A DNA stretch of 64,000 nt from Tetramitus jugosus (taxonomy: Eukaryota > Heterolobosea > Eutetramitea > Acrasida > Vahlkampfiidae): assembly GCA_937625935.1 (NCBI GenBank), contig OW569382.1:310001-374000 (forward strand). Reading direction: 5' to 3'. Numbering within the stretch: the first letter of the stretch is position 1; each line of letters begins with the position of its first letter. The position numbers were made by a program, and so were the translations under genes. Under the pieces are notes generated by a model, which saw only the letters and a program-made list of their open reading frames with translations, did not search any database and was not told where the DNA came from. Below are positions 17,898 through 56,791 of this stretch, piece by piece.

Positions 17898-17968
17898 GGC
17901 TCAACCGAGAATCGAACTCGGGACCCCCAGTTTACAAGACTGGTGCACTACCGCTGTGCTATTGAGCC
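17898..17968 (-). tRNA. tRNA-Thr (TGT)
   Basis: A 71-nt intronless cloverleaf on the minus strand. Acceptor GGCTCAA/TTGAGCC pairs perfectly, the D-stem is GCAC/GTGC, the anticodon stem is CCAGT/ACTGG with loop CTTGTAA (anticodon TGT), and the T-stem is CCGAG/CTCGG with loop TTCGATT. A T-run (TTTTT) follows within 10 nt of the 3' end, suitable for Pol III termination. A retroelement copy starts about 45-67 bp upstream of the 5' end, facing away. Confidence 0.96.
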
Positions 17969-18012
17969 AGTATTTTATCGGCGGTTCTACAAATATTCCA
18001 CCGTAGGTGGGC

Positions 18013-19407
18013 CAAAAAACGCAGAAAAAACGCCGATGAAAAAACGAACACACACCCCTGTTGTTCGCGAGTATGAGAATCCACGCTATGCTGTGTGGAC
18101 CACAGCACCAAGAGGAACTGCTCCAAGCAGCAAGGAGGTCATCATCACTGGAAAGTGTGATGACTCTCCCAAGGCTGCCTTGGCCAAGAAGATTGGCTTG
18201 GATTTTGGTGATTTGCTCACCAGGGTCCAAGTCATCAAGAAGGGCCCCAAGAGGTTTGTTGCGTGGGTAACTGTTGTTGATGACAACATTTACCCATTTG
18301 TTGAATCCTTCAACCGCAACAAGAAGATGAGTGGCTGCAAGGCAGCACTCAAGCACAATGTAGATTGTGCCAAGAAGGTCGTCCTCCACGGTGTCAAAGG
18401 TAAGACGGAGGACGACATCAAGGCCATGCCTGGCACAACAAAGGTCAAGAACGTGCTCAAGAAGCACGACACCGCCTTTGTTGTGATGGAGTCCGAAACG
18501 TATGCCGAAGCTTTGCTTCGGAACGTTCAATCCATGCCAGTGGAGGTGGAAGCAAAGCGCTTCCTTCCACGCCCACGTGATCCGGTCAAGGCTGTCAGCA
18601 AGAGGCTGACCAAGATGTACCAAGAGCTACTGGCTGTGGTGGACGACCTGCGCCACCAAGTCAGTGTGTTAAAAGATATGGCTTCCGTCAACCGGATTCC
18701 CCTCGCATCCCCGTCTCCAAGGACGCCGGAGCGAATCTCCGAATTCGAACCTTCGACTCCGTCTACGACCGATGATTGGGAGTCGATCATGCCGGAGTCC
18801 CATCCCGCCACTCCAACTACGGTCACCCAAGAGCCAACCAACAACACCATTGATGAGGATGCTCGTAACAGAGCAATCCTCGAGCTAGTATTGAACACCT
18901 CCGAGGTGTTCAAGAAAGTCAAGAAAGAGATTGCTGCCCGAGCAATCATGGTGGACCGTGCAAGAAGCACAACCACCGAAGAAGATCCAGTTGAGTTGGA
19001 TCTCAGTAACCCCGACTGTGAGTTACAGAGTCCCCAACTCAACGAACACAAGAAGCGATCAGCACGTGTCACCGTTGGTGACACTGCTGCCAACAAGATC
19101 CCGGCCAGGTTGGCCAGTATCAAGTCAGGTGCTCTCCGGAGGTCCTACCAACTGGCTAGGACTACGGAGCCATCTGACCTCACCAGTGGTGCTCCAGATG
19201 GTAGTGGAGGCCCTCGCAACGAATCCCTGAAGAAGGGATCAAAACAACATTCCAAGAAGAGAATGAATCCTGTTGCGTAGGCCTGTCAATCCACTGGGCA
19301 AGCACCACATCATGTTAGGCAATTGAGAGCAGGCTTGCTCTCACGCAAAAGAAAAATAAAAGTTCCGCAACGTGGTGCGTGAGCACCATTTGTTGTATTA
19401 AAAAAAA
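18013..19407 (+). mobile_element. ORF1-only non-LTR retroelement copy (copy 1), upstream of tRNA-Thr
   Basis: This unit contains the 414-residue frame at 18036-19280 and a 3' region that ends in a run of 8 A (19400-19407). The 3' region has a hairpin GAGAGCA-GGCT-TGCTCTC (19325-19342), an AATAAA (about 19354), a second hairpin TGGTGC-GTGA-GCACCA (19373-19388) and TTGTATT before the A-run. The same order recurs at the 3' ends of the other copies in this window. There is no reverse transcriptase inside, so it appears non-autonomous. The exact 5' boundary is uncertain. A CAAAAAACGCAGAAAAA stretch at 18013-18029 is shared with the copy near tRNA-Leu and may be target rather than element. No clear target duplication was found. 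Confidence 0.75.
18036..19280 (+). CDS. Retroelement ORF1-like protein, intact
   Basis: An intact 414-residue frame from the ATG at 18036. It is related to the broken copy at 33781-34254 and to the 5'-truncated copy at 55688-56380. Shared blocks are LAKKIGLDFGDLLTRVQVIK, FVAWVTV, VLKKHDTAFVVM.SETYA, P.DP.KAV.KRLTKMY.ELL and a C-terminal QSPQLN..KKRS.R.T.GD. The KRLTKMYQELLAVVDDL stretch is a plausible coiled coil. The C-terminal half is Ser/Thr/Pro-rich and ends very basic (KKGSKQHSKKRM). There is no zinc knuckle, RRM or catalytic motif that I recognise. The most likely role is a nucleic-acid-binding first-ORF protein of a LINE-type element. A domesticated gene is possible, since this copy is uninterrupted. 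Confidence 0.75.
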   Translation: MKKRTHTPVVREYENPRYAVWTTAPRGTAPSSKEVIITGKCDDSPKAALAKKIGLDFGDLLTRVQVIKKGPKRFVAWVTVVDDNIYPFVESFNRNKKMSGCKAALKHNVDCAKKVVLHGVKGKTEDDIKAMPGTTKVKNVLKKHDTAFVVMESETYAEALLRNVQSMPVEVEAKRFLPRPRDPVKAVSKRLTKMYQELLAVVDDLRHQVSVLKDMASVNRIPLASPSPRTPERISEFEPSTPSTTDDWESIMPESHPATPTTVTQEPTNNTIDEDARNRAILELVLNTSEVFKKVKKEIAARAIMVDRARSTTTEEDPVELDLSNPDCELQSPQLNEHKKRSARVTVGDTAANKIPARLASIKSGALRRSYQLARTTEPSDLTSGAPDGSGGPRNESLKKGSKQHSKKRMNPVA

Positions 19408-19479
19408 TTCCATGCCGCTGTTTAATTCCGTTGATCAAGTTTAAGCTAAGAATATTGAAATTAATACCCTTTATTTGTC

Positions 19480-20298
19480 TTACGATGGTAAACTGAGCAT
19501 GTGTGGATGCTTCCTTTGGATAGATACTCTATGAGGACCAATGACTGATATAGCAGGATAGTAAATGATTCCTTGAGTAGAAATACCTGATATGGTGTGA
19601 AAGTACGTATTGTTCCTGAATAGATACATCGATGCAGTATTTGAACTACTCAAATTCTTCAAATCGAGCTTGATGGCAATCTTGTCACCTGCATGATAAT
19701 CCGAGCACAGAGCAACATCTGCTCGTACGTGATTAATATGAATTGTATGTTCACCAATGTTGTAACTAACGCCATGACTGCACAATCCAATAATCTTGTC
19801 ACGACCCACTTGTGTAAAAACAAAGGTGCTTCTCTCAATTCCCACAAATATGCGATAACTGTTGAGTTTTTTAATGTCCAGAGACTCTAGAGTGTACTCC
19901 CAACAATGAACCATCCCCATACCAAGTTTTCTACTTGTTCGAATCGTGTCCCATTTGGATCGTCTCTCACATGATATCGTCCTATTGTCGTTGTGCATCA
20001 GAATGTTCGTGTCTGATGTTCTTGACTTGGGATCCCATTTGACCATGCTAGAGCGAACCAATTCTCGCCACACTCTCGCATTGTTCTTGCTTAGGTCGAG
20101 ACTACGAGCCATCAATTTCCACACGCACAAATCGGCCTCAGCACTCAGTACCAAGTAAGCCCCGTGTTGACTAGTCAACGAAATATGATACAAATCACCC
20201 AAGTACAAGAAGTTGAGAATGTACCATTGCAAATCACATGGCAACAACTCAAAAATATTATTACTCGTCACCACTAATTCTTTTTCAGGTGGTTCCAT
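19480..20298 (-). CDS. F-box protein with SPRY-like C-terminal domain
   Basis: A 272-residue protein starting at the ATG at 20298 (MEPPEKEL; the open frame upstream has no ATG). The F-box is FELLPCDLQWYILNFLYLGDLYHISLTS near residues 16-43, the Skp1-binding module of SCF ubiquitin ligases. From about residue 110, a beta-rich region (RRSKWDTIRTSRKLGMGMVHCWEYTLE, then RIFVGIERSTFVF, IGLCSHGVSYNIGEH, GDKIAIKLDL, SMYLFRNNTYFHTI, YYPAISVIG) has the order of SPRY/B30.2 strands. F-box plus SPRY proteins usually recruit specific substrates for ubiquitination. It is head-to-head with another F-box gene, with only 60 bp between start codons. Confidence 0.87.
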   Translation of the reverse strand: MEPPEKELVVTSNNIFELLPCDLQWYILNFLYLGDLYHISLTSQHGAYLVLSAEADLCVWKLMARSLDLSKNNARVWRELVRSSMVKWDPKSRTSDTNILMHNDNRTISCERRSKWDTIRTSRKLGMGMVHCWEYTLESLDIKKLNSYRIFVGIERSTFVFTQVGRDKIIGLCSHGVSYNIGEHTIHINHVRADVALCSDYHAGDKIAIKLDLKNLSSSNTASMYLFRNNTYFHTISGISTQGIIYYPAISVIGPHRVSIQRKHPHMLSLPS

Positions 20299-20358
20299 GA
20301 GTGTTAATGTTTTCTTTTGTTCTCTATCCAAGTTCGAAGCGCCAGAGAACAAAAAAAC
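20299..20358. promoter_or_regulatory. 60-bp shared upstream region of two divergent F-box genes
   Basis: The two ATGs at 20298 (minus) and 20359 (plus) are separated by 60 bp, so 5' UTRs and promoter elements must overlap or extend into the opposing coding sequence. No known core motif is visible. Confidence 0.45.
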
Positions 20359-21402
20359 ATGACTGCCGAACCAACAACAACACTGAGCTGGGATGAACTA
20401 TTTCAGATTCTTCTCTTTCTGCCAGCTTCTGATCTGTGCCACTATGCCATGACCAATTCCACTGCTTATGACGGTATCATGACCAATCAGCACTTGTGGA
20501 CAGTGCTTCTCAAGAGAGACTTCACTGACACGATTGAACATTTGCAACAAGGATCAAACAGAGAGACATTCCAATCTTCTTTGAACATTACCAGTGCCAC
20601 TGAAGTGAGTCAAGACTGTTGTGTTGAAATGAAGGATTACATGTGTCACTACAAGCGATTTTGCCAATTTCCATTCGATCCAGTCATGTCGCGTTCCATG
20701 TATGACCAGGAGTCTAATCACACAATCTCAAAAATCTTGTTCCCTGTGTACAGAGGTCCACTGAATCTGTCAGTGATTGATGCATTGATTAATAGACAAC
20801 TCGTGATACCACCAGATGTTACGCCAAACAACCAGCTGGCTATCGACTTCAAGCTTTTGTGTATGGCTTCGAGACAACCAAAGGTAACTCCAAACTTGAC
20901 ATTTCGACTTTGGATGCTCAATCAGAATCGATTTCAAACCTTAATCAAATGTTACTTCCGTGAGACTCAATGCTTGGTAATCACAGTAGACGCGAACCAT
21001 GCATGGAACGAGGATACTTATGATCCAGTTTATTCATACAGTAATTGTTCAAATTCTCTGACAAATGCTTTGTTTACACTAAAGGAGAGTGTATCATTTT
21101 TAAAGTTTGAACCACCAAAGGCCTGTAAAGGTGTTTTGATTGTCGGTGTTGGTGTTTGGTCAGAAGCTGCACCTATTTCAAAACAGAGATTCCTAAAGGA
21201 TTGTGCTCAAATGTTTGATGCTTTACCTTTGGAATATTTTGAGTTGACTTGTGAGAATGCAGCAGTTATGACTGATGTTATGCTGAGGCGCTTTTACACA
21301 TTTCATCAACAAAGCACTCTAGAGGATGCCATATTAGCTAAAGGACAAGCGGCACCACAAGAACAGTTAGGAGAGACTCCAACAAGATGTATCTTGAGTT
21401 GA
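20359..21402 (+). CDS. F-box protein, unknown substrate domain
   Basis: A 347-residue protein beginning at the ATG at 20359 in an AAAAACATG context. The F-box is LSWDELFQILLFLPASDLCHYAMTNS near residues 9-34, followed by an aromatic HLWTVLLKRDF typical of F-box ends. The rest (about residues 80-347) has no recognised repeat. Fragments such as RLWMLNQNRFQTLIKCYF and ECF/YFELTCENAAVM suggest a folded domain. It is probably an SCF substrate adaptor. It shares a very short intergenic region with the F-box/SPRY gene. Confidence 0.85.
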   Translation: MTAEPTTTLSWDELFQILLFLPASDLCHYAMTNSTAYDGIMTNQHLWTVLLKRDFTDTIEHLQQGSNRETFQSSLNITSATEVSQDCCVEMKDYMCHYKRFCQFPFDPVMSRSMYDQESNHTISKILFPVYRGPLNLSVIDALINRQLVIPPDVTPNNQLAIDFKLLCMASRQPKVTPNLTFRLWMLNQNRFQTLIKCYFRETQCLVITVDANHAWNEDTYDPVYSYSNCSNSLTNALFTLKESVSFLKFEPPKACKGVLIVGVGVWSEAAPISKQRFLKDCAQMFDALPLEYFELTCENAAVMTDVMLRRFYTFHQQSTLEDAILAKGQAAPQEQLGETPTRCILS

Positions 21403-21499
21403 GGCAACATCTTTAGGTTACGATGATTACTATGATACGAAGAACAGGTCTTACCGATCTGATCTTCCACCTCACACGCATTTTCCGCGCTTTTCTAGA

Positions 21500-21619
21500 G
21501 ATAGCGAAACAACAATGACGCTTGGTGACCAAGGGCCATCACTCTTCAGACGATGGCTGAAGAAAACAAAAGACAACAAAGTGAGCAACCGAAATGGTTG
21601 TATTAAAAAAAATAAAAAA
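21500..21619 (+). repeat. Solo 3' tail of the retroelement family (fragment)
   Basis: Contains stem-loop sequences (CTTGG-TGA-CCAAG, GCCATC...GATGGC) followed by GCAACC-GAAAT-GGTTGT, ATT, A8, T, A6. The last part is nearly the same as the 3' end of the ORF2 element at 34271 (AACC, GGTTGTATT, A-run). No coding part of the element precedes it. The left boundary is approximate. Confidence 0.65.
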
Positions 21620-21630
21620 TGTTTCCGTAA

Positions 21631-21803
21631 GAAAGAATATGTTAGGCAGGTATGTTGGGTGAGGAGACGCAAGCAATGAAACAAGTTGCCAAAGGCTCAA
21701 AAAGAGTGGAATCAAGAAAAATATCGCCAATACGAAAGCTAAGCAGTTCATAGAGAATATGTATCGCCTCTTCCCAAGCTCCAAGGAGATGGCCGGTTGC
21801 TGA
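21631..21803 (+). pseudogene. Decayed LINE ORF2 C-terminal remnant
   Basis: The nucleotide sequence aligns by eye over its whole length with the last about 60 codons of the ORF2 fragment at 34403-35157. Shared stretches are ATGTTAG, GAAACAAGTTGCCAAAGG, AATATCGCCAA, CCAAGGAGATGG and GGTTGCTGA. Several small indels put the matching codons in different frames, so it encodes nothing. It lies directly after another element tail ending at 21619, so two insertions are stacked. No tRNA gene is recognisable next to this pair. Confidence 0.75.
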
Positions 21804-22283
21804 TGCTTTCAGGAAGTGATTTTTTTGGTGGCATGGCCTGTCGCTCTTGTGGTATTGTTGACCAGATTTTTGGCCGGAGTCGAACTTCCGAGAAGGAGAA
21901 CTTCTCAGAACCCATACTGCTTTCAACAAGGGTAAACACAATTTCTTTCTTTATTTGCTGACTGTGTGGTTGCTACAATTTCAATGTAAACAATTCCAAG
22001 CGTATTGATTAAGCCTTCACTGTCCAGAGTCACAAAGTGGCTTGTGGGATCGCGCTCTATTCCGAGTTGCTGTCCCATTTTCTTCTAAACAACAGAACAC
22101 TTTTTCTTGCAATTCTCCCCAAGGTTGCATTTCAGACGGAAGAGACTCTTATAGAGCCAGCGGGTCATTGCGAGAGCTGAAGCTACCCATCTCCTCTTCA
22201 CCGTGGGACCGTGTGATACACTATGGTAACGTGCTCATTCTGTTTTCTATGGACAAAAGAAACAAATGCCCTTGAAGGAATTA
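21804..22283. other. Intergenic region, no gene seen
   Basis: About 480 bp between the retroelement remnants and the 3' end of the coiled-coil gene. A short GAGAAG...CTTCTC stem near 21880 and a TCGAA-containing stretch look superficially tRNA-like but do not fold. Nothing else is recognised. Confidence 0.4.
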
Positions 22284-23027
22284 TTACATTTTTGTTGTTC
22301 TCTCTATTTCCGTCAAAAGAGTTGCGCTCATGAGTAGTCTTTCTTTCCTTTGCCTGAGAGCTTCATCGATCATTCTCACGAGAGACAAGTTTAGTTTGAG
22401 TATTAGAAATTGAAGTTGGTCCTTGATATCTTTTTGTCCAAGTTCTTTGAGATTATTCAACAATTGAACAAGTTCCGGTGGATCGCACTGAAATGACTCC
22501 AAACCATGAGTTGAGTCGAGATAGTTCTTAGGGATAGGCTTTTCAACAAGTTAGTAATACTAAACTCCGGTAAGACAAGCCCTTTAGAATCAAGTGAACA
22601 TACTTACCTGAGGATACAAGAGTTTATTCCTATAATCGCTCAAAAAAATCAAGTTGTTGATATCCACTTCTGCATTTTGCTTCATCTTTTTTACAATCTC
22701 CTTGATCAAAATCTTGACTTCCTCTGTCGTGTACAATTGATTGGTTTTCAATCGAAAGAGGATATCTTTCCTTGCTTCAGTCATACAAAAATTCAATACA
22801 TTCCCGTAAATATCAGTGACCCATGTCTTGGGAGCCTTCTGCTCCAGGTCTTCAGATGATCTGTGAACCTTTTGCTCGATCTGAGAGATTTCCTGTTCAA
22901 TTCTCAACCGAGATTGCTCTCGTTTTTTTTGCTTCTCTTCGAGCTGTTTTAGTAGTTCTATCTTCTTTAATCGATCATTTCTAAGTCTCTCGATATCATG
23001 GGTTATCTCATCCAACTTGTTGTTCAT
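22284..23027 (-). CDS. Coiled-coil protein of unknown function, two exons
   Basis: Exons are 23027-22608 and 22526-22284, joined in phase after codon 140. The 81-nt intron starts GTAAGT, contains a TACTAAC-like branch sequence and ends AAG. The joined protein is 220 residues. Residues 1-65 are a long charged helix (IERLRNDRLKKIELLKQLEEKQKKREQ in overlapping heptads), followed by WVTDIYGNVLNFC and a second helical half. No domain is recognised. It could be a small subunit of a larger complex. Convergence on the element remnants at 21.6 kb is the only notable context. Confidence 0.75.
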
Positions 23028-23254
23028 TCCGATTTACAGTAGATTACTTCTCCGATTGTCAGAGTTAAAAATATCCAGATATTGTAAGCGAAATCTTTAG
23101 GAGGAGAAACAGAAACGACGACTGATTTTGCTGAGCGGCAAACAAAAAGCAAAATTTCTTCATCTCCACACAATAACAACAATTTACTTTGATACGCATC
23201 ACAACGAATCATCGTGAAATTCCCATCCACCACACATACACAAGCATCACCATC

Positions 23255-23900
23255 ATGATCCACTATATATTGCTCCAAAACAGAGCAGGAAAGACAAGAC
23301 TCTCCAAATGGTACGAACCATATGAGGACGATGAGAAGGAAAAGATAAAAATTGAAGTTCACAGACTGATCACTGGTCGTGACCAAAAGTTTACCAACTT
23401 TGTAGAGTACAGAAAACACAAAATTATTTATAGAAGATACGCTGGATTGTTCTTCTCTATGGCTGTTGATCCAGCTGACAATGATTTGGCCTACTTGGAA
23501 ATTATTCACTTGTTTGTCGAAGTTTTGGATCACTTCTTTGGTAATGTTTGTGAGTTGGACTTGGTCTTCAATTTCCACAAGGTAAGAAGAGCTTTTTTTT
23601 TGTTGTTTCTAATGTTTCCTGTTGGAACTGCACACATTACCACTGGCACTTTATCGTGTTTATTCTTGTGGTCGTTGTTGTGCTCATGTTCTGGTAGCGA
23701 AACTCAATGTAAGCTTTTTTTGCTAACCACAACCATTTTATTGTTTTTTTGGCGATCTCCAAAATGTCATTTGTGACTGGCGCGTTGCACTATGTTAGGT
23801 GTATATGATTATTGACGAAATGTTTTTGGCTGGTGAGATTCAAGAGACGAGCAAGCCTGTTATCCTTCAACGTTTGCAATTACTAGAGAAATTGGAGTAA
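23255..23900 (+). CDS. AP2S1: AP-2 complex subunit sigma, two exons
   Basis: The small subunit of the clathrin adaptor AP-2, acting in endocytosis at the plasma membrane and helping recognise dileucine sorting signals. Exons are 23255-23581 and 23799-23900, with an intron starting GTAAGA and ending TTAG. The joined protein is 142 residues, exactly the usual length. Diagnostic segments are [64 protein letters not shown] (read in parts) and [15 protein letters not shown]-1 and AP-3 sigma subunits are longer and differ at these places. The ATG at 23255 is the only sensible start. Confidence 0.97.
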
Positions 23901-24242
23901 AAGAACGGAGCTTTTATTCGTGTGTACGACAAGAGCTTTATTTGTTTTTCACTATATTCCAAGTGGTGCATTTCATCTAGTTGGGAGATTCTTGATGGCT
24001 CATCTGACCGTGAGATCTCCCACGTGCCTTCTCTCTTTGTATTCCTCTGATATTTTGTTCCCGCCCACCACATTATTCGAAAAATCTTCTGCGACAGATT
24101 CTTAGTTGACCCTCCGCCTCATTCGAATTTTACTCCGCTATAGGACAAACACGAAATACCCCCGTTTTGGAGAGCTAACGCAACACAAAAAAATCACAAC
24201 GTAAATCACACAACAACAAAAAAGAACACACATAGAAAAAAA
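23901..24242. other. Intergenic region, no gene seen
   Basis: 342 bp between the AP-2 sigma stop and the V-ATPase start, same orientation. It is AT-rich just before the ATG. No RNA gene or repeat is recognised. Confidence 0.45.
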
Positions 24243-25282: not shown

Positions 25283-25494
25283 GTGTCTTCCATCCATTTC
25301 TACTCTCCGGTTTTTGGACTGTGCACTGAAAAGGTGCTTTCTAATGAATCAACTAAAACGAATTTTTTGATAAAATCAAAATTGTATGAATTTGTTTCGT
25401 TTGTTATTGTAATGGATTGCATGTTCCTTCAATTGAAGTTCTTGTCGTATACAATCCTGCTTGTGTCTCGTTCAACAAAATCAAAAAAAAACAA

Positions 25495-27515: not shown

Positions 27516-27601
27516 CAGGGTTCAACAAAAAATTAACGTGACAAACAAATGGAGTTTATGTACAATTATGTTGATTGGAATCTTTGGGAACAAAAAGTAC
27601 C

Positions 27602-28204: not shown

Positions 28205-28998
28205 TGTTGTTGGGAACAAGTGGAGAAGGGTAGTGGAGAGATATCGATGTTTGTTTTTTAGTTGATGGAGGAAGTGGGTCAGTTGAATTTTGTTAAGAAC
28301 ACTGAAAGTTAAAAAAAATAGATGGTTGTATTGGTGATTCGTTGGTTAATATTGTAAAAATACATTTTTATCTGGTTGAGCTAGCGGAAATAATTCAACC
28401 AGATCAGGGAATGATCGCTCTGAACTGTGTGATGTGCACTGTCACTCAATAGTTCATTGATTCGTTGTGCTTATGGATGTGGTCTTTCAACCAACTTCCA
28501 TTCAATCCAAAAATCCCTGTCCTCTGCTTTGTAAATGATTCTGCTACTCTTTCTCGAATGTTGGGATCACACCATTGGCTAGCACAGTAACTTCGGACTT
28601 CCCTGTTCTTCTGGCAAGCAGTGTTTCATCGCACAGTTTTCGAATCAATTCCAAGTATTCTTGTACTATTCTGTACTTTGCTGGACCAATCCCTTTCATA
28701 CCGTATCTTATCTTTGCCTCCTTGTAAGGTAAAACCATAACTTCGTTCATCGAAGAAAGTATTGAGATAGGAGACTACAGGCAGTGGAAGATGCAAAGAA
28801 TTGTTCATCTCGAAAAGTCTTAATTAACAATTGTGAACTCAACTCCTATTGAAGCGTGAGCATGAGTACAATGAGAAAGGTATTATCTGTGACTTGCAAT
28901 ATCTCATATCAATAATGATACCAATAGACTGTGGTGCAGTCGCTACACTCGTTCATTTTGGAGCTCTGCAATGTGGCATCTGCACAAACATTTTAATA
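28205..28998. other. Intergenic region with one doubtful 68-codon frame
   Basis: About 790 bp. The minus-strand frame 28544-28750 (ATG to stop, 68 codons, containing KGIGPAKYRIVQEYLELIRKL) is helical and could be a small protein or a last exon, but I find no family or upstream exon. Around 28370 a pair of short inverted stretches (CTGGTTGAGC, CAACCAGATC) is visible. Otherwise nothing is recognised. Confidence 0.35.
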
Positions 28999-33780: not shown

Positions 33781-34254
33781 TCAGCAAAGGCATAGGTTTC
33801 ATCACCCATGACCACGAAAGCAGTGTCACCCTTCTTGAGCACACTGACAACCTTTTCAGGCCAGTAGCTTCTTGATGTCGTCCACTGACATGTTCTTCAT
33901 GCCGTGGACGACCACCTTTCTTGTGCAATCGACACTGCGCTTGGGTGCAGCAGTGCTGTTGCCAGTCCTCCTCTCTTTGTTGAAGAACTCAACAAACTCA
34001 TAGAATAGGTCACCCTTGACCGTCACCCATGCAACAAAGCGTTGCTGGCCTTTCCTCTTGATGACTTGGACTCTGTTGAGCCAGTCACCAAACTCCTCTC
34101 CTATCTTTCTTGCCAAAGATGACTGAGAGACACCATTACCGTTGCCAGTAATGACGCCCTCTCTGTCACTTGGCGCAGAGCCTTTCCGGGCAGTGGTTCA
34201 CACTGCGGAACGGCTGTTGCCGTATTCCTTCGCCAATTGTTGAATCACCAGCAT
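33781..34254 (-). pseudogene. Broken copy of the retroelement ORF1 (copy 2), upstream of tRNA-Met
   Basis: Minus-strand sequence starting at an ATG (34254-34252) that matches the ORF1-like protein of copies 1 and 3, for example EYGNSRSAV, SSLARKIGEEFGDWLNRVQVI, QRFVAWVTV and SVDCTRKVVVHG. It has a nonsense TGA where copy 1 has a Trp codon (after SAV) and a +1 frameshift just after DIKKLLA. It then resumes as KVVSVLKKGDTAFVVMGDETYA and stops matching near 33783. The 3' half and A-tail are missing. Ignoring the later LINE insertion, it began about 60 bp upstream of the tRNA-Met 5' end. Confidence 0.85.
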
Positions 34255-34270
34255 GTGATACCGTTTTTTA
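34250..34270. repeat. Target site duplication, left copy (21 bp)
   Basis: Begins AGCATGTG and ends CGTTTTTTA. Identical to 35158-35178 over all 21 bases and directly abuts the LINE fragment on its A-tail side. Confidence 0.93.
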
Positions 34271-35157
34271 TTTTTTTTTAAATACAACCAATGGTTGCGC
34301 TGTTTATTCGTTGTTGATTCTCTTTACATGACGTAACTGTTTCGTTTATGACGGCAGAATGCCGTCACTGTTGCATTGTTTGTTGCTGGTGCTCGCAGAG
34401 CATCAGCAACCAGCCATCTCCTTGGAGCTTGTGAAGAGGCGAAGCATCACCTCAATACATCTCCTCTTAGTATTATCCACGAACTGTTTCGCTTTCTTCT
34501 TGGCGATATCCTTCTTAATTCCATTTTTTTTGAGCCCTTTGGCAACTTGTTTCGCTGCTTGCGATTCCACACCTAACATACCTAACATATATTGTTTCCC
34601 AGTCTTCCTTTGCTCGTTAGTTGTGCGCTTACCGTTGCACCACTGTTGGTTATCAAACCATATGTCCACACATTGTGACTTATGCAGTCCCATTGAGCTC
34701 AGCTTCGCAGCAACCTCCTTTGCGAGCAAAATTCTGGCCATCCTTGCGACTGGGCAGTTGATGAGACAGTGAAGAACCGTCTCTTGCTCGAAATTGCACT
34801 TCGGGCATGACGTATCCATATCCTCCACATTATAGAGGTTCTTCACCACAGCCTTTGTGTGAAGTGTGTGACTTTTAACTTGGGCCACGAACCATTCCAG
34901 CTGTCTGCTCACCCTAAAAGGACACCTCATGAATGAAAAGTCGGTAACACCTCCCAAACACTCTTTTTGAATCCACCAAATCTTCTCCGTCCCTATCAAA
35001 TCTCTGTACTGTCTAGTAAATATATTCCAGATCTGTTTTTTTTCCGTAACTTCAAAGTTATCCTTGCACATAAGTATCGGCGGAGCTGCGCCCCTGTTGA
35101 TCATGTGTAAACACACAGGAGCTTTTTTTGCAGCAGAAACGTGTTTTGTTTTGTGAA
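34271..35157 (-). mobile_element. 5'-truncated non-LTR retrotransposon (LINE), ORF2 C-terminus and 3' UTR
   Basis: Minus-strand fragment flanked by perfect 21-bp direct repeats. It encodes the last about 250 residues of ORF2 (frame open from 35156 to the stop at 34403). This includes the C-terminal zinc motif CPKCNFEQETVLHCLINCP (CX2CX7HX4C pattern, as in zf-RVT regions) and a basic tail KKNGIKKDIAKKKAKQF. The 3' UTR has a hairpin TGACGGCA...TGCCGTCA (34349-34367), AATAAA, a second hairpin CAACC-AAT-GGTTG (34285-34297), GTTGTATTT and an A-run with one T. The reverse transcriptase domain is absent (truncated). The fragment is uninterrupted, suggesting recent insertion. It lies inside the 5' end of ORF1 copy 2. 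Confidence 0.93.
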
Positions 35158-35178
35158 AGCATGTGATACCGTTTTTTA
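35158..35178. repeat. Target site duplication, right copy (21 bp)
   Basis: Identical to 34250-34270. It lies 41-61 bp upstream of the tRNA-Met 5' end at 35219, so it records where the LINE machinery cut. Confidence 0.93.
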
Positions 35179-35236
35179 CGGATAATCCGTCCGGTGTGAT
35201 GCTGAATTATGATAGACAGCGGGTTTGGCGCAGCTG

Positions 35237-35247
35237 CCCGAATAAAA
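35237..35247 (+). repeat. Left terminal inverted repeat
   Basis: CCCGAATAAAA, directly after the D-loop TG of tRNA-Met; inverted copy at 36525-36535. Confidence 0.8.
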
Positions 35248-36524
35248 CGTGGGAACCTGACTATGAGAGATCAGGTCATGAGTCAGGTGCTGCCTAATTC
35301 GACACAAAAGTCGGGAACTGACTCAACAAAAGCTGCTGCCGACTCCGGTGTCAACTCCATCAGAAAGTTGGGAATACAACTCAGGTACTGACTCACACGA
35401 AGTACACCACTGAACCATGAGTTAAGTGAAAAAACAGCAAGTCAACTGAGTCGATATTTTAGCCCGATCTCCCTCTCAACTGCTAATCACAACCAACCGC
35501 TTTGAATTTGTTGAAGTCGGTTTGTTTCCAACAAACCGAACACAACCAACCCAAACGAAACTGCTTCAAGCAACAAAAATTTTTTAAGTTTTCTCTTATT
35601 GAATCCCAAAACGTGTGACCACAAGGCTAAAGAATCATCTGCCAAGAAGCAGATTGTTACTCCTGCGACTCCATCCACTGAGCAAGTTCTGACACAAGGA
35701 ACAGGTGTTGAACAAACAGATCAAGAAAGAGTTGAGACTGAATACTGGTACGTTTGTTCTTTTTCTTTATGTTTCGATCAGTTGTGATTTTCTGAATTTT
35801 CACTTCAATCTGGAGTTATGAGTGATATGGACTTACTTGCTGGAGAATGATGAAGTAATGCCTGCTTTGAACGTTGAGGACAGGATGTTAAACAGTGTCA
35901 AAACAGAAATGAGCATTGTATTAGGTCAGTATCAATTTTCTTTGCTGTTAATTGTTGATGTCACTTACCCTCCTTTTTCACAGTGGAGAGATTCCTATGG
36001 TATGTCGAACTTCGCAGTTTGTGTTTGTACTTGTTACTTACAACTTCTTTCCTGCTCTCGCACCTGCTCAAAATTGTCGGAGAAATAATGATCCAACCAC
36101 TTGACGAGGAGTCTCCTTGATCAAACTTACGGAGATAAAGTACAAAGATCAGTGATGACCCACTTACCGAGTGATGAGAGTTTTCTTTGGAATCTGTCCA
36201 GAAGGGTTGATCTTGATTCACGAAAAATATTCTTAATAAATGTTGTTCTTCATTCTCTCATAAGATTACAAGAATTTTTGGCCCCTCACTCGCCCCTGTT
36301 TCTCCTTGTTAGCCGCCTGATGGTTGACTTGGGTCATGAGTTTGCACAGGACACAATACCTGACTTCAGCAAGTCGGCACCTGAAAATGAATGGCTACTT
36401 GGACCACTGCAGATGGTTGGTTTGTACCTGACTCCAGTGCTGACTCTGAGATAGTCAGCACCGGACTCGATCCGAGTCAGGATCTGGCACAACGAAAGTC
36501 AGGTGCTGGTTGCCTCATGTGATT

Positions 36525-36535
36525 TTTTATTCGGG
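36525..36535 (-). repeat. Right terminal inverted repeat
   Basis: TTTTATTCGGG, the reverse complement of the left end, directly before TG and the rest of the tRNA-Met D-loop. Confidence 0.8.
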
Positions 36536-36593
36536 TGGTAGTCGCGTAGGTCTCATAATCCTAAGGTCGTGAGTTCGATCCTCACAACCCGCA

Positions 36594-47131: not shown

Positions 47132-47311
47132 TTTCTGTTTCACACAACTGTTTTTTGATTTCGAGTGTTGTTTTTGATCTGTTATGATCTCATCTCCGTT
47201 GTGAACAATAATATCCAAGATCAAGTTGAAGAACTTTTGGCAAGAAATGCTCAGCCGGAATAGCTCTGATGATAATTTATTGAGTTTGTCCTGTTGGTTA
47301 GTTCTTTTGAC

Positions 47312-51191: not shown

Positions 51192-51894
51192 AAATGATAA
51201 GTTTTGCTTTCTCCAATGGTGTAATCTTGACAACCAGTCACCAAACTTAATGTTTCGAACGGTTCTTCCTTGATATAATAAAAACAATTTTGATATCGTC
51301 CGACATACAATTTACATGTCACTCACGTTTACCTTATACAGATGTAAAAGCTACCTAGAGCGAGAAGTGGGAATCGGAGTGGTACATGAGGAAGTTGCAT
51401 AAAGTTTTGGAGCTAACACACGTAAACCTTATCCGTTCACCCTGTGCACAGATTAGTTTGGCATGTGTCAATAGTCCAGATAACGAGAGACAATGAGAAA
51501 CAAACATGGAGTGCAAGCTTATTACAGACATATGTCCTGCGTTCTGTGTAGAACGTTGGTGTTGCTTCCAGATCATGGAACTGTCGGAACTTCCCAAAAT
51601 GCTGTGTCTCTAGAAAACAACACAACGGCAACATCTTTTTGATGCACCCAAATTCCCCGTACGAACATCATTCCGCAGAGAGCGCCTTCCGAAGAGTATT
51701 GAGCTTGAGTGGGACAAGGACCCAAATAGTCATTGATTTGACAATCCTCCTTTCACAATACTTTAAAACCAAAACACATAGGCCACAATCTCCACACTCA
51801 AAATCTCTCCATTTTGGCTCATTTATCATACAGTGACACAATTGCACAATTTAGTGAACAAAATCTATCACTTTTACTAAGTAATCCTTTCAAG
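51192..51894. other. Spacer between the two paralogs, no gene seen
   Basis: About 700 bp with only short frames on both strands. No element boundary, tRNA or repeat is recognised. It should hold the promoter of the second paralog. Confidence 0.45.
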
Positions 51895-52509
51895 ATGAAC
51901 CAACAGGACCACGAGAACGAAACACAGCAGCATAACATCAACCGTCGAACAATCTCTTCTGTCTCTCCGAGCAGTAGTCATGGTGGTAACAACCATTGGA
52001 AGTTTGAGATTATGACAGACGTGCAGAAGTTGTCAGATTATAGTGCCATGGCAAAGAGGTCGCGTACACCTTCCTCATCCTCTACAAGTCGGTCTTCTGG
52101 AGAAGAAATTGTGCAAACCAGTGCAGGGTTCTTTAGCAGGTGGCAGATTGGTTCCCCACCAAATTCTCCAGCGTCAGCTTCTTCATCACCCAAGACTTCT
52201 CACCCAATGGCACAACATTGGAGCAATACGAGCCATCACTCTCACCAACGTCATCATTTACAAGTTGTGGAGCGCGAGCAACAAGCGAGACCTGCACGAT
52301 CTCGTGTTCTATCCCAAACAGGATACGATAACTATCTTGGTTTAAGTCAGGAGCATGATCACTCACACACTTTCCATAACGTGTACACCACTATGTTTAC
52401 CGCTCTAGTTGGGGAAGAAGAAGTCAATAGAATTGACCAACAGTACAGAGCGAGCCGCTTATCCAAATCAAGGAACAATATCTCAATCAAGGAACTACTT
52501 AATTCCTAA
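51895..52509 (+). CDS. Unknown protein, member 2 of a tandem paralog pair
   Basis: A 204-residue protein from the ATG at 51895 (CAAGATGAACC context; an open stretch upstream lacks support). It carries the same blocks as its neighbour: WKFEIMTDVQKLSDYSAMAKRSR, VQTSAGFFSRWQIG and VYTTMFTALVGEEEVNRIDQQYRASR, ending NNISIKELLNS. The middle is His/Gln/Ser-rich and poorly conserved. The tandem, same-strand arrangement indicates gene duplication. Function is unknown. Confidence 0.82.
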   Translation: MNQQDHENETQQHNINRRTISSVSPSSSHGGNNHWKFEIMTDVQKLSDYSAMAKRSRTPSSSSTSRSSGEEIVQTSAGFFSRWQIGSPPNSPASASSSPKTSHPMAQHWSNTSHHSHQRHHLQVVEREQQARPARSRVLSQTGYDNYLGLSQEHDHSHTFHNVYTTMFTALVGEEEVNRIDQQYRASRLSKSRNNISIKELLNS

Positions 52510-52638
52510 AATGGTTCTACTATGATCTCGGACAAGCGAGAAGCGGAAACACGGCAGTGGGCATCGGGCACACGATGGGAAGATCTACGAAAATGATTGA
52601 GATACATTGATAATAATTGTGTTCTGCCTTATTCATAT

Positions 52639-55353
52639 CTAGATGTTTCTTGCCTCTTCAAGTGAGAGGCCAATATCGTTACTGCTCATTTTGGGTCCTC
52701 CTCGAGCTCTAATTAACAAGCACACTACAGCGATGAGCGAAATGGAAATTATGATAATCACCATAAATCCGACGATAGCACCGACTGTAGCTCCAATGAC
52801 GACACTCTTGCGGTAGCGAGGAGGACTAGATTGATTCTCGTTAGGAGGATTGGGACCACCTGGCTCTATCGTGGAAGTACCGCAGAATGTTCCAGTAGAA
52901 TTGCTTGAGCAGTTACAAGTGTCTACACCGATACACACACCATGTCCTGAGCATACACTAGCGTTTGTATGGAGTATACCACCACACATGTGAGTAGAAC
53001 AGTCAATTTCACCGTATCCATACTCACATGAACAGTTATCAAAGTGGATACATTGGCCATGTCCTGAGCAACTATTTTCTGAACTGGAGTTGTGTCCAAA
53101 ACATTCTAACGTGGGCGTATCACAGAACTTACCTGCGAAATGGCTTGAACAGTTACAAGTATCTACATCAATGCATACACCATGGCCTGAACAAACGTTA
53201 GTATTGGTATGCAGAATACTATCACACATGTGGATGGAGCAGTTGATACTGCCATATCCATACTCACATGAGCAGCTGTCGAAGCTAAGACAACTACCAT
53301 GTCCTGAACAAACATTGTCTGAACTGGAGTTGTGTCCAAAACATGTCGTGAGCTCACACTCACTTCCAAAGAATTGATCTGGGTGGTTACATATGCAATA
53401 ATCTACAGAAATACAAGCCCCTTTTCCGGAACACACAGAGGAATCATTGCTACTAGTATTGAAGCACATTGTAATATCACACACATCACCGAACCAATCA
53501 GCGTCACACTCACACTGATCAACTCCAACACAGCGGCCATTACCTGAACAAACATCAGCAGAGGTTTCATTGTAACCGAAGCAAGTGAGCATACTGCACT
53601 GTTCTCCAACATAGCCAGTGTAGCAAGAACAATAATCTTCAGACAGGCACGAACCATTTCCTGAACAAGCATTGGCATCGGTGTTGTTCAAACCAAAACA
53701 GGTTGTGTAATTGCATGCTTCTCCCCACCAACCAGCGCTACACGAACAATTGTTAGGACTAATGCAACTACCGTGGTTGGAGCAAACTTCTTTGTTGTCT
53801 TGACTGAAACCGAAACACATTGGTAGTTCGCATTCATTTCCTGTATATCCTTCAATACAGACACAGTTTTCCTTTGATTGACACACACCGTTTTCAGAAC
53901 ACACATGACTACTATTAGCTTCTAAATTAGAGCAGGTGACCACTTGATGCTGTGCAACATAAACATCAAAATCACCAGCCGAAGAAATACCGAATGCACC
54001 GAAGAGAGCACTCGCCTTGAAGTTTCCTGAGGAATAAAGAGTCGATTTATCATTCGCAACCATGATTCGAGAGCTATAATCTTGTTCAATACCACCTCCC
54101 CCAACAGCCCATAATACCTTTCCATCAGTCACATCATAACTCGCAACAAAGGCATCAGTATTTCCTCCTGACGTTAGAGAAATATCAGACGAAAATTGAA
54201 CATTTCCTTCGAACTGTCCAGCCACATACACGGCACCGTTATTACCAACTGAAATAGAATTTCCAATATCTGCTCCCGTTCCTCCACTCTGAACAACCCA
54301 AGCAAACTGACCTGAAGCAGGATCCAATTTGGCAATGAATACATCGCTTAATCCACTAGAGATTAGATGAAAGGATCCAAATGTTGCGTTCCCTGTGAAA
54401 GAACCTGTGACATAGACATAACCGTCTTGTCCCAACGCGATACTCTTTCCTTCGTCATTCGTGATACCTCCTGCTCTTGTAATCCACAAAAACTTTCCTT
54501 CACTATCTAATTTTACAATAAATACATCTGTTCCACCGGAAGAGGTGACAGTGGGTTGTGAATTATCTATCAATGTAACTTGAAAGGCAGATTCAAATCG
54601 GCCTGTGACATAGGCAGAGTTATCAGAGGCAGTCACAATCGATAAACCTCTATCATTGCCACTACCACCCATCTTTATAGCCCAGACACATTTGTAGGCT
54701 GAATTCAACGTAGAATACTTGATAATAGTGATATCTTCCAGTCCCGATGATGTGAGAGCGCATGACCCAAAAGTAAAGCGATCAGAAAGCGTACCTGCAA
54801 TTACCAAAGAATCATCTGTTCTTAAATCGAATGCTCCTCCTAATACTATACCTGTTCCCTGATTCAATAGATAGGAAAATACTGAGCAACTTCCACTGTC
54901 CGTATTGAACCTTGCTTGAAATTGAGCAGTAACCGCTGAGGTATACTTTCCACTGCCACATATTTGGAGATCTCCAGTAAAGTATCCCAAGACAAACAAT
55001 GTTGAACCATCGCTCGAAAGTTTGATATCAGTGGGGCTGGCTTGTGGTATACCACCCATCGATCCCGTTACTACCCAGACAACTTCACTATTGTCCGATC
55101 TGAGTTTCGCAACAAACACGTAAGAATTTCCTGGGCTGCTCGTACTCAGAGAAGTGTTACCAAATGTTGTTGAGCTTGTGAATGATCCAGAAATGTAAAT
55201 GTACTGCTGATCAGGAGAGAGTACCATGGATGAGACAGTGTCTCGATTCGATCCTCCTTGGCGAGTGACCTGTGAGATTTGTTGACTTGGAGAAGATGAT
55301 ACTCGACATGTCAACAGCGTGAAGAGTAGTAGTATGAGGATAAGATAACGCAT
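52639..55353 (-). CDS. EGF-repeat cell-surface protein with SBBP-type beta-propeller repeats
   Basis: A 904-residue type I membrane protein. The start at 55353 gives a clean signal peptide (MRYLILILLLFTLLTCRVSS). Residues about 30-470 are repeated beta segments of the SBBP kind, each with a YVTGSF/VYVAGQF strand and a DVFIAKLD/DAFVASYD strand, about seven copies. Nine EGF-like modules follow (C-x-G...C-S-G-x-G-x-C...C-x-C...G...C), each about 38-40 residues; modules 6-7 and 8-9 are near-duplicates. One transmembrane helix (VGAIVGFMVIIIISISLIAV) and a short tail (MSSNDIGLSLEEARNI) end the protein. It is probably an adhesion or receptor-like surface protein. Confidence 0.92.
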   Translation of the reverse strand: MRYLILILLLFTLLTCRVSSSPSQQISQVTRQGGSNRDTVSSMVLSPDQQYIYISGSFTSSTTFGNTSLSTSSPGNSYVFVAKLRSDNSEVVWVVTGSMGGIPQASPTDIKLSSDGSTLFVLGYFTGDLQICGSGKYTSAVTAQFQARFNTDSGSCSVFSYLLNQGTGIVLGGAFDLRTDDSLVIAGTLSDRFTFGSCALTSSGLEDITIIKYSTLNSAYKCVWAIKMGGSGNDRGLSIVTASDNSAYVTGRFESAFQVTLIDNSQPTVTSSGGTDVFIVKLDSEGKFLWITRAGGITNDEGKSIALGQDGYVYVTGSFTGNATFGSFHLISSGLSDVFIAKLDPASGQFAWVVQSGGTGADIGNSISVGNNGAVYVAGQFEGNVQFSSDISLTSGGNTDAFVASYDVTDGKVLWAVGGGGIEQDYSSRIMVANDKSTLYSSGNFKASALFGAFGISSAGDFDVYVAQHQVVTCSNLEANSSHVCSENGVCQSKENCVCIEGYTGNECELPMCFGFSQDNKEVCSNHGSCISPNNCSCSAGWWGEACNYTTCFGLNNTDANACSGNGSCLSEDYCSCYTGYVGEQCSMLTCFGYNETSADVCSGNGRCVGVDQCECDADWFGDVCDITMCFNTSSNDSSVCSGKGACISVDYCICNHPDQFFGSECELTTCFGHNSSSDNVCSGHGSCLSFDSCSCEYGYGSINCSIHMCDSILHTNTNVCSGHGVCIDVDTCNCSSHFAGKFCDTPTLECFGHNSSSENSCSGHGQCIHFDNCSCEYGYGEIDCSTHMCGGILHTNASVCSGHGVCIGVDTCNCSSNSTGTFCGTSTIEPGGPNPPNENQSSPPRYRKSVVIGATVGAIVGFMVIIIISISLIAVVCLLIRARGGPKMSSNDIGLSLEEARNI

Positions 55354-55546
55354 GTTGTTGGTTTTGTTGTTGATCCGAGTTGACACACCCGCTATCCACC
55401 AACTTAAGATTCGAAAATGACGTATGACACAATATCCCACACATCAAACGTCTAATAAATACTCCTCTCAAATACAACAGCAAAATCGTAAAAAATCAAC
55501 CAATATTACTCCCCGCGAATTCAGCTGCAGACCAAAGCAAAACTCT

Positions 55547-55625
55547 GACGAGGGCGGGATTTGAACCCGCGCCCCGAAGGACTGCGGCCTTAACACAGCG
55601 TCTTAGACCACTCGACCACCTCGCC
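55547..55625 (-). tRNA. tRNA-Leu (AAG)
   Basis: A 79-nt class II cloverleaf on the minus strand without an intron. Acceptor GGCGAGG pairs with CCTCGTC (one G-T), the anticodon stem CTGTG/CGCAG has loop TTAAGGC (anticodon AAG), the variable arm is short (TCCTTCGGGGC) and the T-stem GCGGG/CCCGC has loop TTCAAAT. A TTTT follows the 3' end. Retroelement copy 3 begins about 40-60 bp upstream, facing away. Confidence 0.95.
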
Positions 55626-55663
55626 ATCTTATAGTAAATCTCCGTAAATTTGTATTTACTTAG

Positions 55664-56613
55664 TGTCAAAAACGCAGAAAAATATGCTTGGCCTGTTGGG
55701 TATTGAAACAAGTTGAGATCAAAGGACTGACGAAGGTGGCCAGTGTGCTCAAGAAGCGTGACACTTCATTCGTGGTCATGGGTGATGAAACCTATGCACG
55801 AGCAGTGCTCAGTGGAGAGAACAAGGTAAAGGCCACGGTCACTCGATACGTCGAGAGGCCACATGATCCTCTCAAGGCTGTCAACAAGAGGTTGACCAAG
55901 ATGTACGAGGAGCTGCTGATGGTGGTTGACGCACCGGTCACAGAACTCACCAAGGAGTTAGGAAAGACAAAGGGTCAAGAAGGCAACAAACCGGTTCCAA
56001 TACCGGAACAAGAAGTTGTCCAAGCCACTGCTAGTGAGGAGACTACTCCTGAGTTAGTGGAGGTAGAAGAACAGAGGACTGTAGCAACACCACTGCCATC
56101 AGTGCCTGTTGTACAGCTCACTGCTGAGAACCGGCAAATTCTGGATCAAGTGAATGCCACTTCTCCAGTGTTCGCCAGAGTGAAAAAGGAAATTGCTGCA
56201 TTGGCGCTGGCTGCTGCACGCAAAAGGTATGGTTTGACTGAGGATGAACCAGTCATTGTGGATGTGGATGATGACTCCGAAAAGGAGATTCAGAGTCCAC
56301 AGCTCAATGACAACAAGAAGAGGAGTACTAGGATCACACTGGGTGATCTGATGAGCAACAAGGCCCAAACAAGAAAATAACAACAGATGGCTCTGTGTCC
56401 ATCGACGGTCCTACTACAAGGTTACACCCTTTGATGAAGGACATCAACCAAAACACTCACCAGAGTGATTCTTCCAACCTGTAGATGCACCGTCGGGGAC
56501 AACAAGAGAAGAAGAGTGAATGACGCCCTACGGGTCGTCACTCACAAAACAAGTCAATAAATGAGCAATCATGTGCTTGCTGCGCAAGCACACATGGTTG
56601 TATGGAAAAAAAA
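55664..56613 (+). mobile_element. 5'-truncated ORF1-only retroelement copy (copy 3), upstream of tRNA-Leu
   Basis: Contains the coding remnant 55688-56380 and a 3' UTR with hairpin TGACG...CGTCA (56521-56540), AATAAA (about 56556), a strong hairpin TGTGCTTGC-TGC-GCAAGCACA (56572-56592), GGTTGTATGG and an A-run (56606-56613). The order of 3' parts is the same as in copy 1 and the LINE. The CAAAAACGCAGAAAAA stretch just before the coding part is shared with the site upstream of tRNA-Thr. The 5' boundary is approximate, and no clear target duplication is found. Confidence 0.75.
55688..56380 (+). pseudogene. Retroelement ORF1 remnant, 5' end missing, C-terminal part intact
   Basis: The frame is open for 230 codons but has no initiating ATG. 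It begins at the region equal to residue 125 or so of copy 1 (KVASVLKKRDTSFVVMGDETYA) and then follows it: RPHDPLKAVNKRLTKMYEELL, an acidic variable middle and QSPQLNDNKKRSTRITLGD near the end. The lack of the N-terminal third agrees with 5' truncation during reverse transcription. The frame carries no stops, so the insertion is either young or selected. Confidence 0.78.
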
Positions 56614-56620
56614 TTTACAT

Positions 56621-56791
56621 GTCTTTCGTGGTCATGGGTACTCCACACCAAACCAAATCTTGAGATTGCAGGTCCCATAACTGTTAACTGTTTGTTGCCG
56701 TGTGTCTAGCTTGAAAACATTTGCTCCCGCACTCGGGAACAACAAGATCGAAGGACAAACAATAAAGAGCAACCCGCGTTGTATTTAAAAA
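56621..56791 (+). repeat. Further retroelement 3' tail fragment (copy 4)
   Basis: It begins with TTCGTGGTCATGGGT (56625-56639), identical to a stretch of the ORF1 sequence in copies 2 and 3. It ends with CCCG-CACT-CGGG, AATAAA, CAAC-CCGC-GTTG, GTTGTATTT and A5 (56787-56791). It directly follows copy 3's A-run, so it is a second, stacked insertion or an older one that copy 3 landed on. Non-coding. Confidence 0.65.

Follow-up and report, generated by a model that had tools for sequence, protein, structure and literature searches.

A diverse family of non-LTR retrotransposons with an APE-type endonuclease, accompanied by abundant ORF1-only derivatives, very probably targets a slot upstream of tRNA genes in this heterolobosean-like genome of 26.35 Mb. 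In the window (the whole stretch of 64,000 nucleotides analysed), a first-pass annotation had placed an element copy about 40 to 70 bp upstream of each of three tRNA genes, always facing away from the gene. This arrangement was recovered, with distances of 57 (or 46), 60 and 42 bp, and similar arrangements were found across the genome.

Element copies at the three tRNA genes of the window

The tRNA-Thr (TGT) gene, at 17897-17968 on the minus strand, was detected by ARAGORN and by Rfam (70.7 bits). The adjoining copy, which we call family A, lies on the plus strand at 18025-19407 and points away from the tRNA. It carries an ORF1 of 414 aa (18036-19280) and a tail (19392-19407), and is an ORF1-only derivative of the full-length elements described below. 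It starts 57 bp from the tRNA 5′ end, or 46 bp if an extra leader from 18014 is counted, and a clear target duplication is absent (6 bp at best). At tRNA-Leu (AAG, 55545-55626, minus strand, ARAGORN and Rfam), an ORF1-type copy (55668-56613, plus strand) begins 42 bp from the tRNA 5′ end and also points away. The N-terminal part of its ORF1 is absent (ORF 55688-56380). Two more tails had been reported at this gene: one further tail-like end, recognised by eye on the plus strand at about 56778-56791, is indeed stacked behind the copy, and the other (56597-56613) is the tail of the copy itself.

The situation at tRNA-Met is more complex. The gene placed at 35219 is real but not intact: its 5′ part (35219-35236) and 3′ part (36536-36593), both on the plus strand, are split by a 1,299 bp insertion (35237-36535), whose terminal inverted repeat of 11 bp, CCCGAATAAAA, is exact, and TG is duplicated. 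The 3′ part matches eight other places resembling tRNA-Met genes, and the split gene is reported by neither ARAGORN nor Rfam. Upstream, an ORF1-type copy (33783-34270, minus strand) is interrupted in its 5′ region by a 5′-truncated LINE (34271-35159, minus strand), which retains the C-terminal part of ORF2 (matches at 34406-35092) and a tail (34271-34288). The LINE points away from the tRNA, with its junction (35159/35160) 60 bp away from the 5′ end of the tRNA. Both sides of the LINE carry the first 19 bp of the ORF1-type copy, as a distal copy (34252-34270) and an exactly matching proximal copy (35160-35178) located 41-59 bp upstream of tRNA-Met. Because the LINE is nested inside these first 19 bp and flanked by their exact duplication, two insertions are supported here, which bears out the initial impression that two different elements had used this site.

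Targeting of tRNA genes is not absolute, as two fragments of the window lie without a tRNA. The first corresponds to the element pair noticed at 21.5-21.8 kb, already described as lacking a recognisable tRNA: truncated copies occupy 21597-21800 on the plus strand (tail 21597-21612, ORF2 C-terminal fragment 21649-21800), and Rfam found no tRNA around them at E values up to 5. The second is an ORF2 fragment at 28449-28765, on the minus strand, with no tRNA nearby. Direct repeats of at least 60 bp, looked for within the window only, included no long terminal repeats. The window has a GC content of 41-42% and is rich in long ORFs. Mantamonas sphyraenae, with a GC content of 59% (PMC10492846), was rejected as host on this ground. 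The DDB1/CPSF1-like protein of the window had no relative at E ≤ 0.001; COX1, used in its place, supports the heterolobosean-like nature of the genome suggested in the annotation.

Coding capacity and marks of insertion

Full-length elements consist of ORF1 followed by an overlapping ORF2 encoding an APE endonuclease and a reverse transcriptase (RT), the start ATG of ORF2 lying inside the 4-7 nt overlap. In three ORF2 proteins, RVT_1 (PF00078) was found above cut-off (E 1e-24 to 7e-29), together with Exo_endo_phos (PF03372, E 5e-5 to 1e-8). For the latter, with a cut-off of 24.5 bits, L101 (35.4) and L103 (25.2) score above and L102 (23.6) just below. A full-length ORF2 with an endonuclease of the type found in TRE5, the Dictyostelium element to which the annotation had likened these copies, is therefore present. 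A C-terminal zf-RVT match in one of the three ORF2s was weak (18.4 bits for a cut-off of 27.5), no RNase H family was seen among the Pfam matches of the three, and ORF1 matched no Pfam family above cut-off. In an RT tree combining 12 of our sequences with 37 public ones, of which few are named, ours form one clade on a long stem. No Dictyostelium name appears among 63 listed relatives, few of which carry names.

Of 8 copies, 6 have target duplications of 13-21 bp, which occupy roughly -38 to -58; a seventh has one of 27 bp with a poly-A run. In the five copies with an adjacent tRNA, the duplications span from 38-44 to 54-58 bp from it. Tails and target duplications of variable length are expected for APE-type non-LTR elements. 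Five copies (L047, L049, L052, L060 and L064) have a divergent tRNA too close before the RT, and are thus 5′-truncated. The APE and RT domains of ORF2, the A-rich tails, the target duplications and the 5′ truncations together uphold the initial assignment to non-LTR retroelements.

Association with tRNA genes across the genome

For family A, 40 5′ junctions, scored out of 110 candidates, were read. A divergent tRNA detected by ARAGORN lies 26-61 bp from the 5′ end in 23 of them (44-61 bp in 22 of the 23), a count that includes the window copy at tRNA-Thr (L001) and one copy whose tRNA was not typed by ARAGORN (L094). All 23 tRNAs are on the opposite strand, and they represent 13 isotypes plus one undetermined. 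In 13 other junctions, the 5′ end abuts the tail motif of another copy; among these we counted L086, where the tail is a GTTGTTTGG variant preceded by an ORF2 C-terminus. The remaining 4 comprise one at a tRNA-Ile remnant, one at an ORF1 copy, and 2 unexplained.

The ORF1 copies outside family A behave similarly: a divergent tRNA was found at 43-75 bp for 20 of 64, against 0.024 expected (never more than 2 across 20,000 trials, for which contig sizes were approximate). This is a lower bound, as the coordinate-only tRNA list used here recovers just 10 of the 40 family A copies. With this incomplete list, 38 of the 64 5′ ends had no assignment. The list held 206 tRNA positions, and another genome-wide count used 187. 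On the LINE side, 68 of 73 RT rows were taken for measuring distances to tRNAs, five weak fragments being left out. Among 35 near-complete RT matches, 11 lie within 6 kb of a listed tRNA, the tRNA always being upstream and in opposite orientation, and for seven of these the distance is 2.70-3.03 kb, as predicted for a full-length ORF1 plus ORF2. The 30 RTs grouped at 70% identity make five groups, each with at least one tRNA-linked member. At one tRNA locus (L016), element pieces are also present in the other orientation.

The converse count, starting from the tRNAs, was made on 53 nuclear tRNA genes chosen by covariance score only and regardless of elements; these are the best-scoring genes, so that isotypes are unevenly sampled, and the repeat library was built from element-bearing and tRNA loci. 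Repeat DNA is present within 600 bp upstream of 36 of the 53 genes, and downstream of 4. When only the 26 tRNAs with 600 bp available on both sides are considered, the numbers are 16 upstream versus 3 downstream. The upstream repeat edge falls at 35-74 bp in 29 of the 53; in five of the 36 it is at 87-409 bp, and in two the match reaches the tRNA itself. The other 17 genes have no upstream repeat within 600 bp. These genome-wide counts exclude chance, and the enrichment near tRNA genes proposed from the window is a property of the genome.

Could the association reflect a few events only, in which a tRNA and its adjoining element were duplicated together as a segment? Some tRNA genes are indeed near neighbours (C7:317510 and C7:318614), and three RT fragments of the second type share a distance of 459-460 bp to a tRNA. 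Yet the 13 isotypes, the unlike sequences of the spacers between tRNA and element, and target duplications that differ at most sites indicate locus-specific events; segmental duplication is largely refuted, and we consider it extremely improbable. Another explanation is random insertion followed by selection, which in a compact genome would retain only the copies near tRNA genes. Tolerant places may be few, given the wealth of long ORFs in the window. Nevertheless, a slot of about 20 bp, confined to a single side and a single orientation, is hardly accounted for by selection alone, and the copies are alike, 38 of the 40 family A copies being at least 95% identical to the window copy. We regard this explanation as very improbable.

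A model for insertion

Position, orientation, target duplications, stacking and coding capacity are all observed, and they suggest the following model. The elements would insert by target-primed reverse transcription some 38-58 bp upstream of a tRNA gene, and be transcribed away from it. Nicks by the endonuclease would fall about 40 bp from the tRNA start on one strand and about 55 bp on the other. A later insertion would reuse the slot and push the earlier copy outward, generating the stacks. ORF1-only copies would presumably be copied in trans by the ORF2 of full-length elements.

Since distance, and no evident sequence, defines the slot, and tRNA genes of many isotypes serve as targets, we infer that the insertion complex may be brought by the Pol III initiation machinery assembled on the tRNA gene (TFIIIB loaded by TFIIIC), possibly through ORF1. 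Alternatively, the endonuclease itself might read a sequence in the DNA close to tRNA genes. A degree of sequence bias is seen in many APE elements, and two duplicated sites (L002 and L005) have in common an A-rich AAAAACGCAGAA stretch; this stretch, however, is the leader motif of older copies, into which both duplications extend, no motif common to the other duplicated sites was evident by eye, and the isotypes differ. Sequence recognition in place of the Pol III complex therefore seems unlikely. TRE5 is characterised by dependence on the B box, by an ORF1 that binds TFIIIB and by 5S rRNA genes as an additional target. With 47 5S genes scored out of 772 candidates, a divergent 5S gene at 20-90 bp was found for none of the 40 family A 5′ ends and for 1 of the 64 others (C13:105984, 50 bp).

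Comparison with known tRNA-targeting elements

The closest parallel, compared by description, is TRE5 of Dictyostelium discoideum. According to the parts of the literature consulted (PMC5391098; PMC5911963; PMC5006619), TRE5 inserts 44-54 bp upstream of tRNA genes in opposite orientation, encodes ORF1 and an ORF2 with APE, RT and zinc-finger domains, ends with an oligo(A) tail and forms tandem stacks; TRE5-A.2, an ORF1-only form devoid of ORF2, exists beside TRE5-A.1, and TREs are present at 61% of the tRNA genes. The elements described here share the slot at about 50 bp, the opposite orientation, the A-rich tail, the stacking, the ORF1-only forms and the ORF1 plus ORF2 (APE, RT) layout, with a weak zinc motif. 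They differ by their heterolobosean-like host (Discoba), whereas that of TRE5 is amoebozoan, and by the ORF2 ATG within the short overlap, where TRE5-A reportedly needs a -1 frameshift (PMC5911963).

tRNA genes are named among the targets of non-LTR elements in the portion of PMC4640811 consulted, and section 9 of PMC5006619 calls the origin of TREs undetermined. In the literature examined, seen in part, upstream tRNA targeting by LINEs is detailed for dictyostelids only, and no report of tRNA-targeted LINEs in Heterolobosea was recognisable from titles and abstract starts in the open-access literature. Tentatively, and with some doubt, we propose that a heterolobosean LINE radiation kept tRNA-gene targeting throughout its diversification, at the same slot as the amoebozoan TRE5. 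If true, eukaryotic TFIIIB would offer a general docking geometry, found by LINEs more than once, or else the habit would be far older than dictyostelids, and dispersed 5S or other Pol III genes would be targets too. An abundant second case in another eukaryotic supergroup is a natural experiment: a comparison of ORF1 proteins could tell one Pol III docking surface found twice from an inherited one. The case further broadens the idea that elements parking at Pol III genes are favoured in compact genomes.

Other elements resemble ours in part, as far as described in the sections of PMC5911963 consulted. NLTR-B of Polysphondylium pallidum sits 39-64 bp upstream of tRNA genes, but its three ORFs are separate and an RNase H domain is present. 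NLTR-A of D. purpureum and TRE3 of D. discoideum are also non-LTR elements targeting tRNA genes, but the former is found 2-6 bp upstream and the latter 40-150 bp downstream. Finally, the LTR elements Ty3, Tj1 and DGLT-A, which have an integrase and LTRs, also insert a short distance upstream of tRNA genes, at about 1-33 bp, TFIIIB being the route for Ty3.

Elements beside the tRNA genes of the window

A tRNA-Thr gene (17897-17968) and a tRNA-Leu gene (55545-55626), both on the minus strand, were found by ARAGORN and Rfam. The tRNA-Met gene is split: its first 18 bases lie at 35219-35236, and the remaining part, which matches eight other places in the genome, lies at 36536-36593, beyond an insert. 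The insert is 1,299 bp long (35237-36535), ends in exact 11-bp terminal inverted repeats (CCCGAATAAAA), shows a TG duplication, breaks the tRNA near the D arm and matches three further genome places at 89-93%. The first-pass annotation had stated that all three tRNA genes have a retroelement copy directly upstream. As tRNA-Met is real but split, this holds for position, one of the three genes being broken.

At tRNA-Thr, an ORF1-only element (the type called family A below) starts 57 bp from the tRNA, at 18025; its ORF1 is at 18036-19280 and its tail, the 3′ end motif, at 19392-19407. The copy at tRNA-Leu, whose ORF1 lacks its N-terminal part, starts 42 bp from the tRNA, at 55668, and has its tail at 56597-56613; a further tail-like end is seen at about 56778-56791. 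At tRNA-Met, 60 bp separate the tRNA from a 5′-truncated LINE on the minus strand (34271-35159), on whose two sides 19 bp are repeated exactly (34252-34270 and 35160-35178). These 19 bp form the 5′ end of an ORF1-type copy (33783-34270), and therefore the same slot was used by two elements in succession, as had been proposed. For the element fragments at 21597-21800 and 28449-28765, no tRNA was found. Elsewhere in the window, a long minus-strand ORF contains two 240-nt direct repeats side by side (52865-53344) that are 76% alike.

Repeats upstream of tRNA genes in the whole genome

Placement upstream of tRNA genes is confirmed, and the whole genome shows it far more strongly than the window does. 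In the assembly (26,348,746 bases, 56 contigs), where the window occupies C39:310001-374000, a tRNA family search gave 63 matches; the 10 on contigs C54 and C56, which look mitochondrial (identical match places, presence of COX1), were set aside and 53 were used. Repeat DNA, matching other loci, was detected within 600 bp upstream of 36 of the 53 tRNAs, with its edge at 35-74 bp in 29 of them; of the remainder, two have the edge at 0 and five at 87-409 bp. Downstream, it was found at 4 of the 53 (over 600 bp in 26 genes and 200 bp in the other 27). Where both flanks were of equal length (26 tRNAs), repeats were counted 16 times upstream versus 3 downstream, and a protein-level comparison of these tRNAs gave 15 and 2, one of these 2 belonging, by its coordinates, to a neighbouring tRNA. 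At one locus (L016), element pieces upstream of the tRNA are also present in the other orientation. The B-box pattern occurs 534 times genome-wide, versus 86 for the reversed control, suggesting a total of about 450 tRNA genes.

tRNA genes upstream of element copies

The reverse analysis started from the elements. A DNA search with the tRNA-Thr copy was scored for the best 40 of 110 candidates, and the 5′ flanks of all 40 family-A matches (8 loci and 32 stretches) were read. ARAGORN detected an opposite-strand tRNA beside 23 of these 40 ends, its 5′ end 26-61 bp from the nominal element start (44-61 bp in 22 of the 23). The isotypes were Thr, Ala, Ser, Gly, Asn, Gln, Phe, Lys, Trp, Asp, Val, Ile and Leu, plus one untyped. 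Another 13 copies had the tail motif of a different element directly upstream. Among the 4 left over, one (L087) has a tRNA-Ile remnant at its 5′ flank, one (L100) adjoins a copy of the other ORF1 type, and two (L081, L098) fall outside these classes.

Another ORF1 served as query at the protein level; the best 92 of 249 candidates were scored and yielded 95 matches. These 92 places comprise 28 family-A copies and 64 others. By coordinates, a divergent tRNA lies at 43-75 bp from 19 of the 64 with a list of 187 tRNAs, and from at least 20 with a list of 206, while 64 points placed at random (20,000 trials, contig extents approximate) had 0.024 such neighbours on average and 2 at most. Since the 187-tRNA list recovers only 10 of the 40 family-A copies, versus the 23 that have tRNAs, the count of 20 among the 64 should be read as a minimum. 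The other non-A copies comprise 5 that follow another copy, 1 placed 50 bp from a 5S gene and 38 left unassigned; with the 187-tRNA list, no same-strand tRNA was found within 200 bp of the 64. The 5S case (C13:105984) starts upstream of the gene and is divergent, the only such copy among the 47 5S genes listed (best 47 of 772 candidates), which are dispersed over many contigs with no single array.

Reverse transcriptases were compared with the tRNAs for 68 of 73 RT matches, 35 of them near-complete. A listed tRNA lies no more than 6 kb from eleven of these, upstream and on the opposite strand in every case, and at 2.70-3.03 kb in seven. Three same-strand tRNAs were seen among the RT fragments, at 2.0, 3.4 and 4.4 kb.

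Two other sets of RT matches were noted. Fragments of a second RT type (RVT_1 about 59-205) lie at C15:386571-386933, C30:32495-32857, C40:276712-277089 and C35:278212-278583, with an opposite-strand tRNA 5′ end 460, 459, 460 and 396 bp past them, respectively; they may be segmental copies, or may come from a second retroelement linked to tRNA genes, on the 3′ side. Short matches (RVT_1 106-164) at C3:2089, C10:606104, C17:2337, C48:379851 and C9:603492, four of the five within open frames of at least 490 aa, are possibly subtelomeric RT elements; those on C3 and C17 are about 2 kb from the contig start and the other three at high coordinates.

Element structure

In the full-length element L102, ORF1 (463 aa) and ORF2 (1,274 aa) overlap by 7 nt counted from the ORF2 ATG; the overlap is 7 nt in L101 and 4 nt in L103, and the open frame common to both ORFs spans 13-64 nt in the three. 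Their ORF2s all match RVT_1 and Exo_endo_phos in Pfam, and one also zf-RVT, weakly; for ORF1, no Pfam match exceeded the cut-off. Over 227 residues, the window ORF1 and that of L102 share 40% identity. For each of the 8 family-A copies with a known 3′ end, the tail lies 1.15-1.37 kb from the 5′ end, leaving therefore no space for ORF2, and ORF1 is 414 aa long in 5 and shorter in 3. Of the 73 RT matches, the 30 that have loci are linked at 50% identity; at 70% they form five groups, each with at least one member having a divergent tRNA. The closest public relative of ORF2 among 63 listed has 23% identity over 83% of the query, and in the RT tree 12 RTs of this genome are set apart on a long stem.

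Target duplications and stacking

Both ends are known for 8 family-A copies, and target duplications were sought in these. Six have duplications of 13-21 bp, a seventh one of 27 bp, lengthened by a poly-A run, and the window tRNA-Thr copy has 6 bp, i.e. no clear one. In the five family-A copies that adjoin a tRNA, the duplication reaches from 38-44 bp out to 54-58 bp from it; at the tRNA-Met LINE it covers 41-59 bp. Target-primed reverse transcription with staggered nicks would be expected to leave such a footprint. Inspection by eye revealed no motif common to the duplicated sites, apart from L002 and L005, whose sites fall in an A-rich leader belonging to older copies. Ahead of the 5′ end shared by the family, some family-A copies (window 18014-18025, L002, L005) carry an extra AAAAAACGCAG stretch, and a similar leader stands at the start of another ORF1 family; the family-A copies concerned may therefore have inserted into older copies' leaders, or 5′ ends may be variable.

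Beyond the observed position, orientation and duplication, we infer a mechanism in which the slot is measured from the tRNA, so that the newest copy would lie closest and stacks would result. At a tRNA read by eye as Arg, anticodon TCT (C4:342714-342786), AGATTAACGGGCTTTA adjoins the tRNA and recurs between the proximal and distal copies. By analogy with TRE5-A, the distance could be set by the Pol III machinery, because TRE5-A is described as needing a functional B box and its ORF1 as interacting with TFIIIB proteins (PMC5391098 and PMC5911963).

Comparison with TRE5

According to PMC5911963, PMC5391098 and PMC5006619, Dictyostelium TRE5 elements lie 44-54 bp upstream of tRNA genes in opposite transcriptional orientation, have an ORF1 and an APE-RT-zinc-finger ORF2, include an ORF1-only derivative (TRE5-A.2) and form tandem stacks; in D. 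discoideum, TREs are found at 61% of the tRNA genes. The present element is like TRE5 in slot, orientation, ORFs, ORF1-only form and stacks, a likeness of behaviour. In the open-access literature on Naegleria, Acrasis and Heterolobosea, we found no report of tRNA-targeted LINEs. We conclude that this is a new instance of a known, rare kind of target choice, possibly an independent one. As for the host, COX1 of C54 matches Pleurostomum flabellatum at 68% and Acrasis kona at 65%, and metagenome proteins at up to 87%, each among 120 listed of 8,000 proteins; by taxonomy lookup, Pleurostomum belongs to Heterolobosea (Discoba) and Dictyostelium to Amoebozoa.
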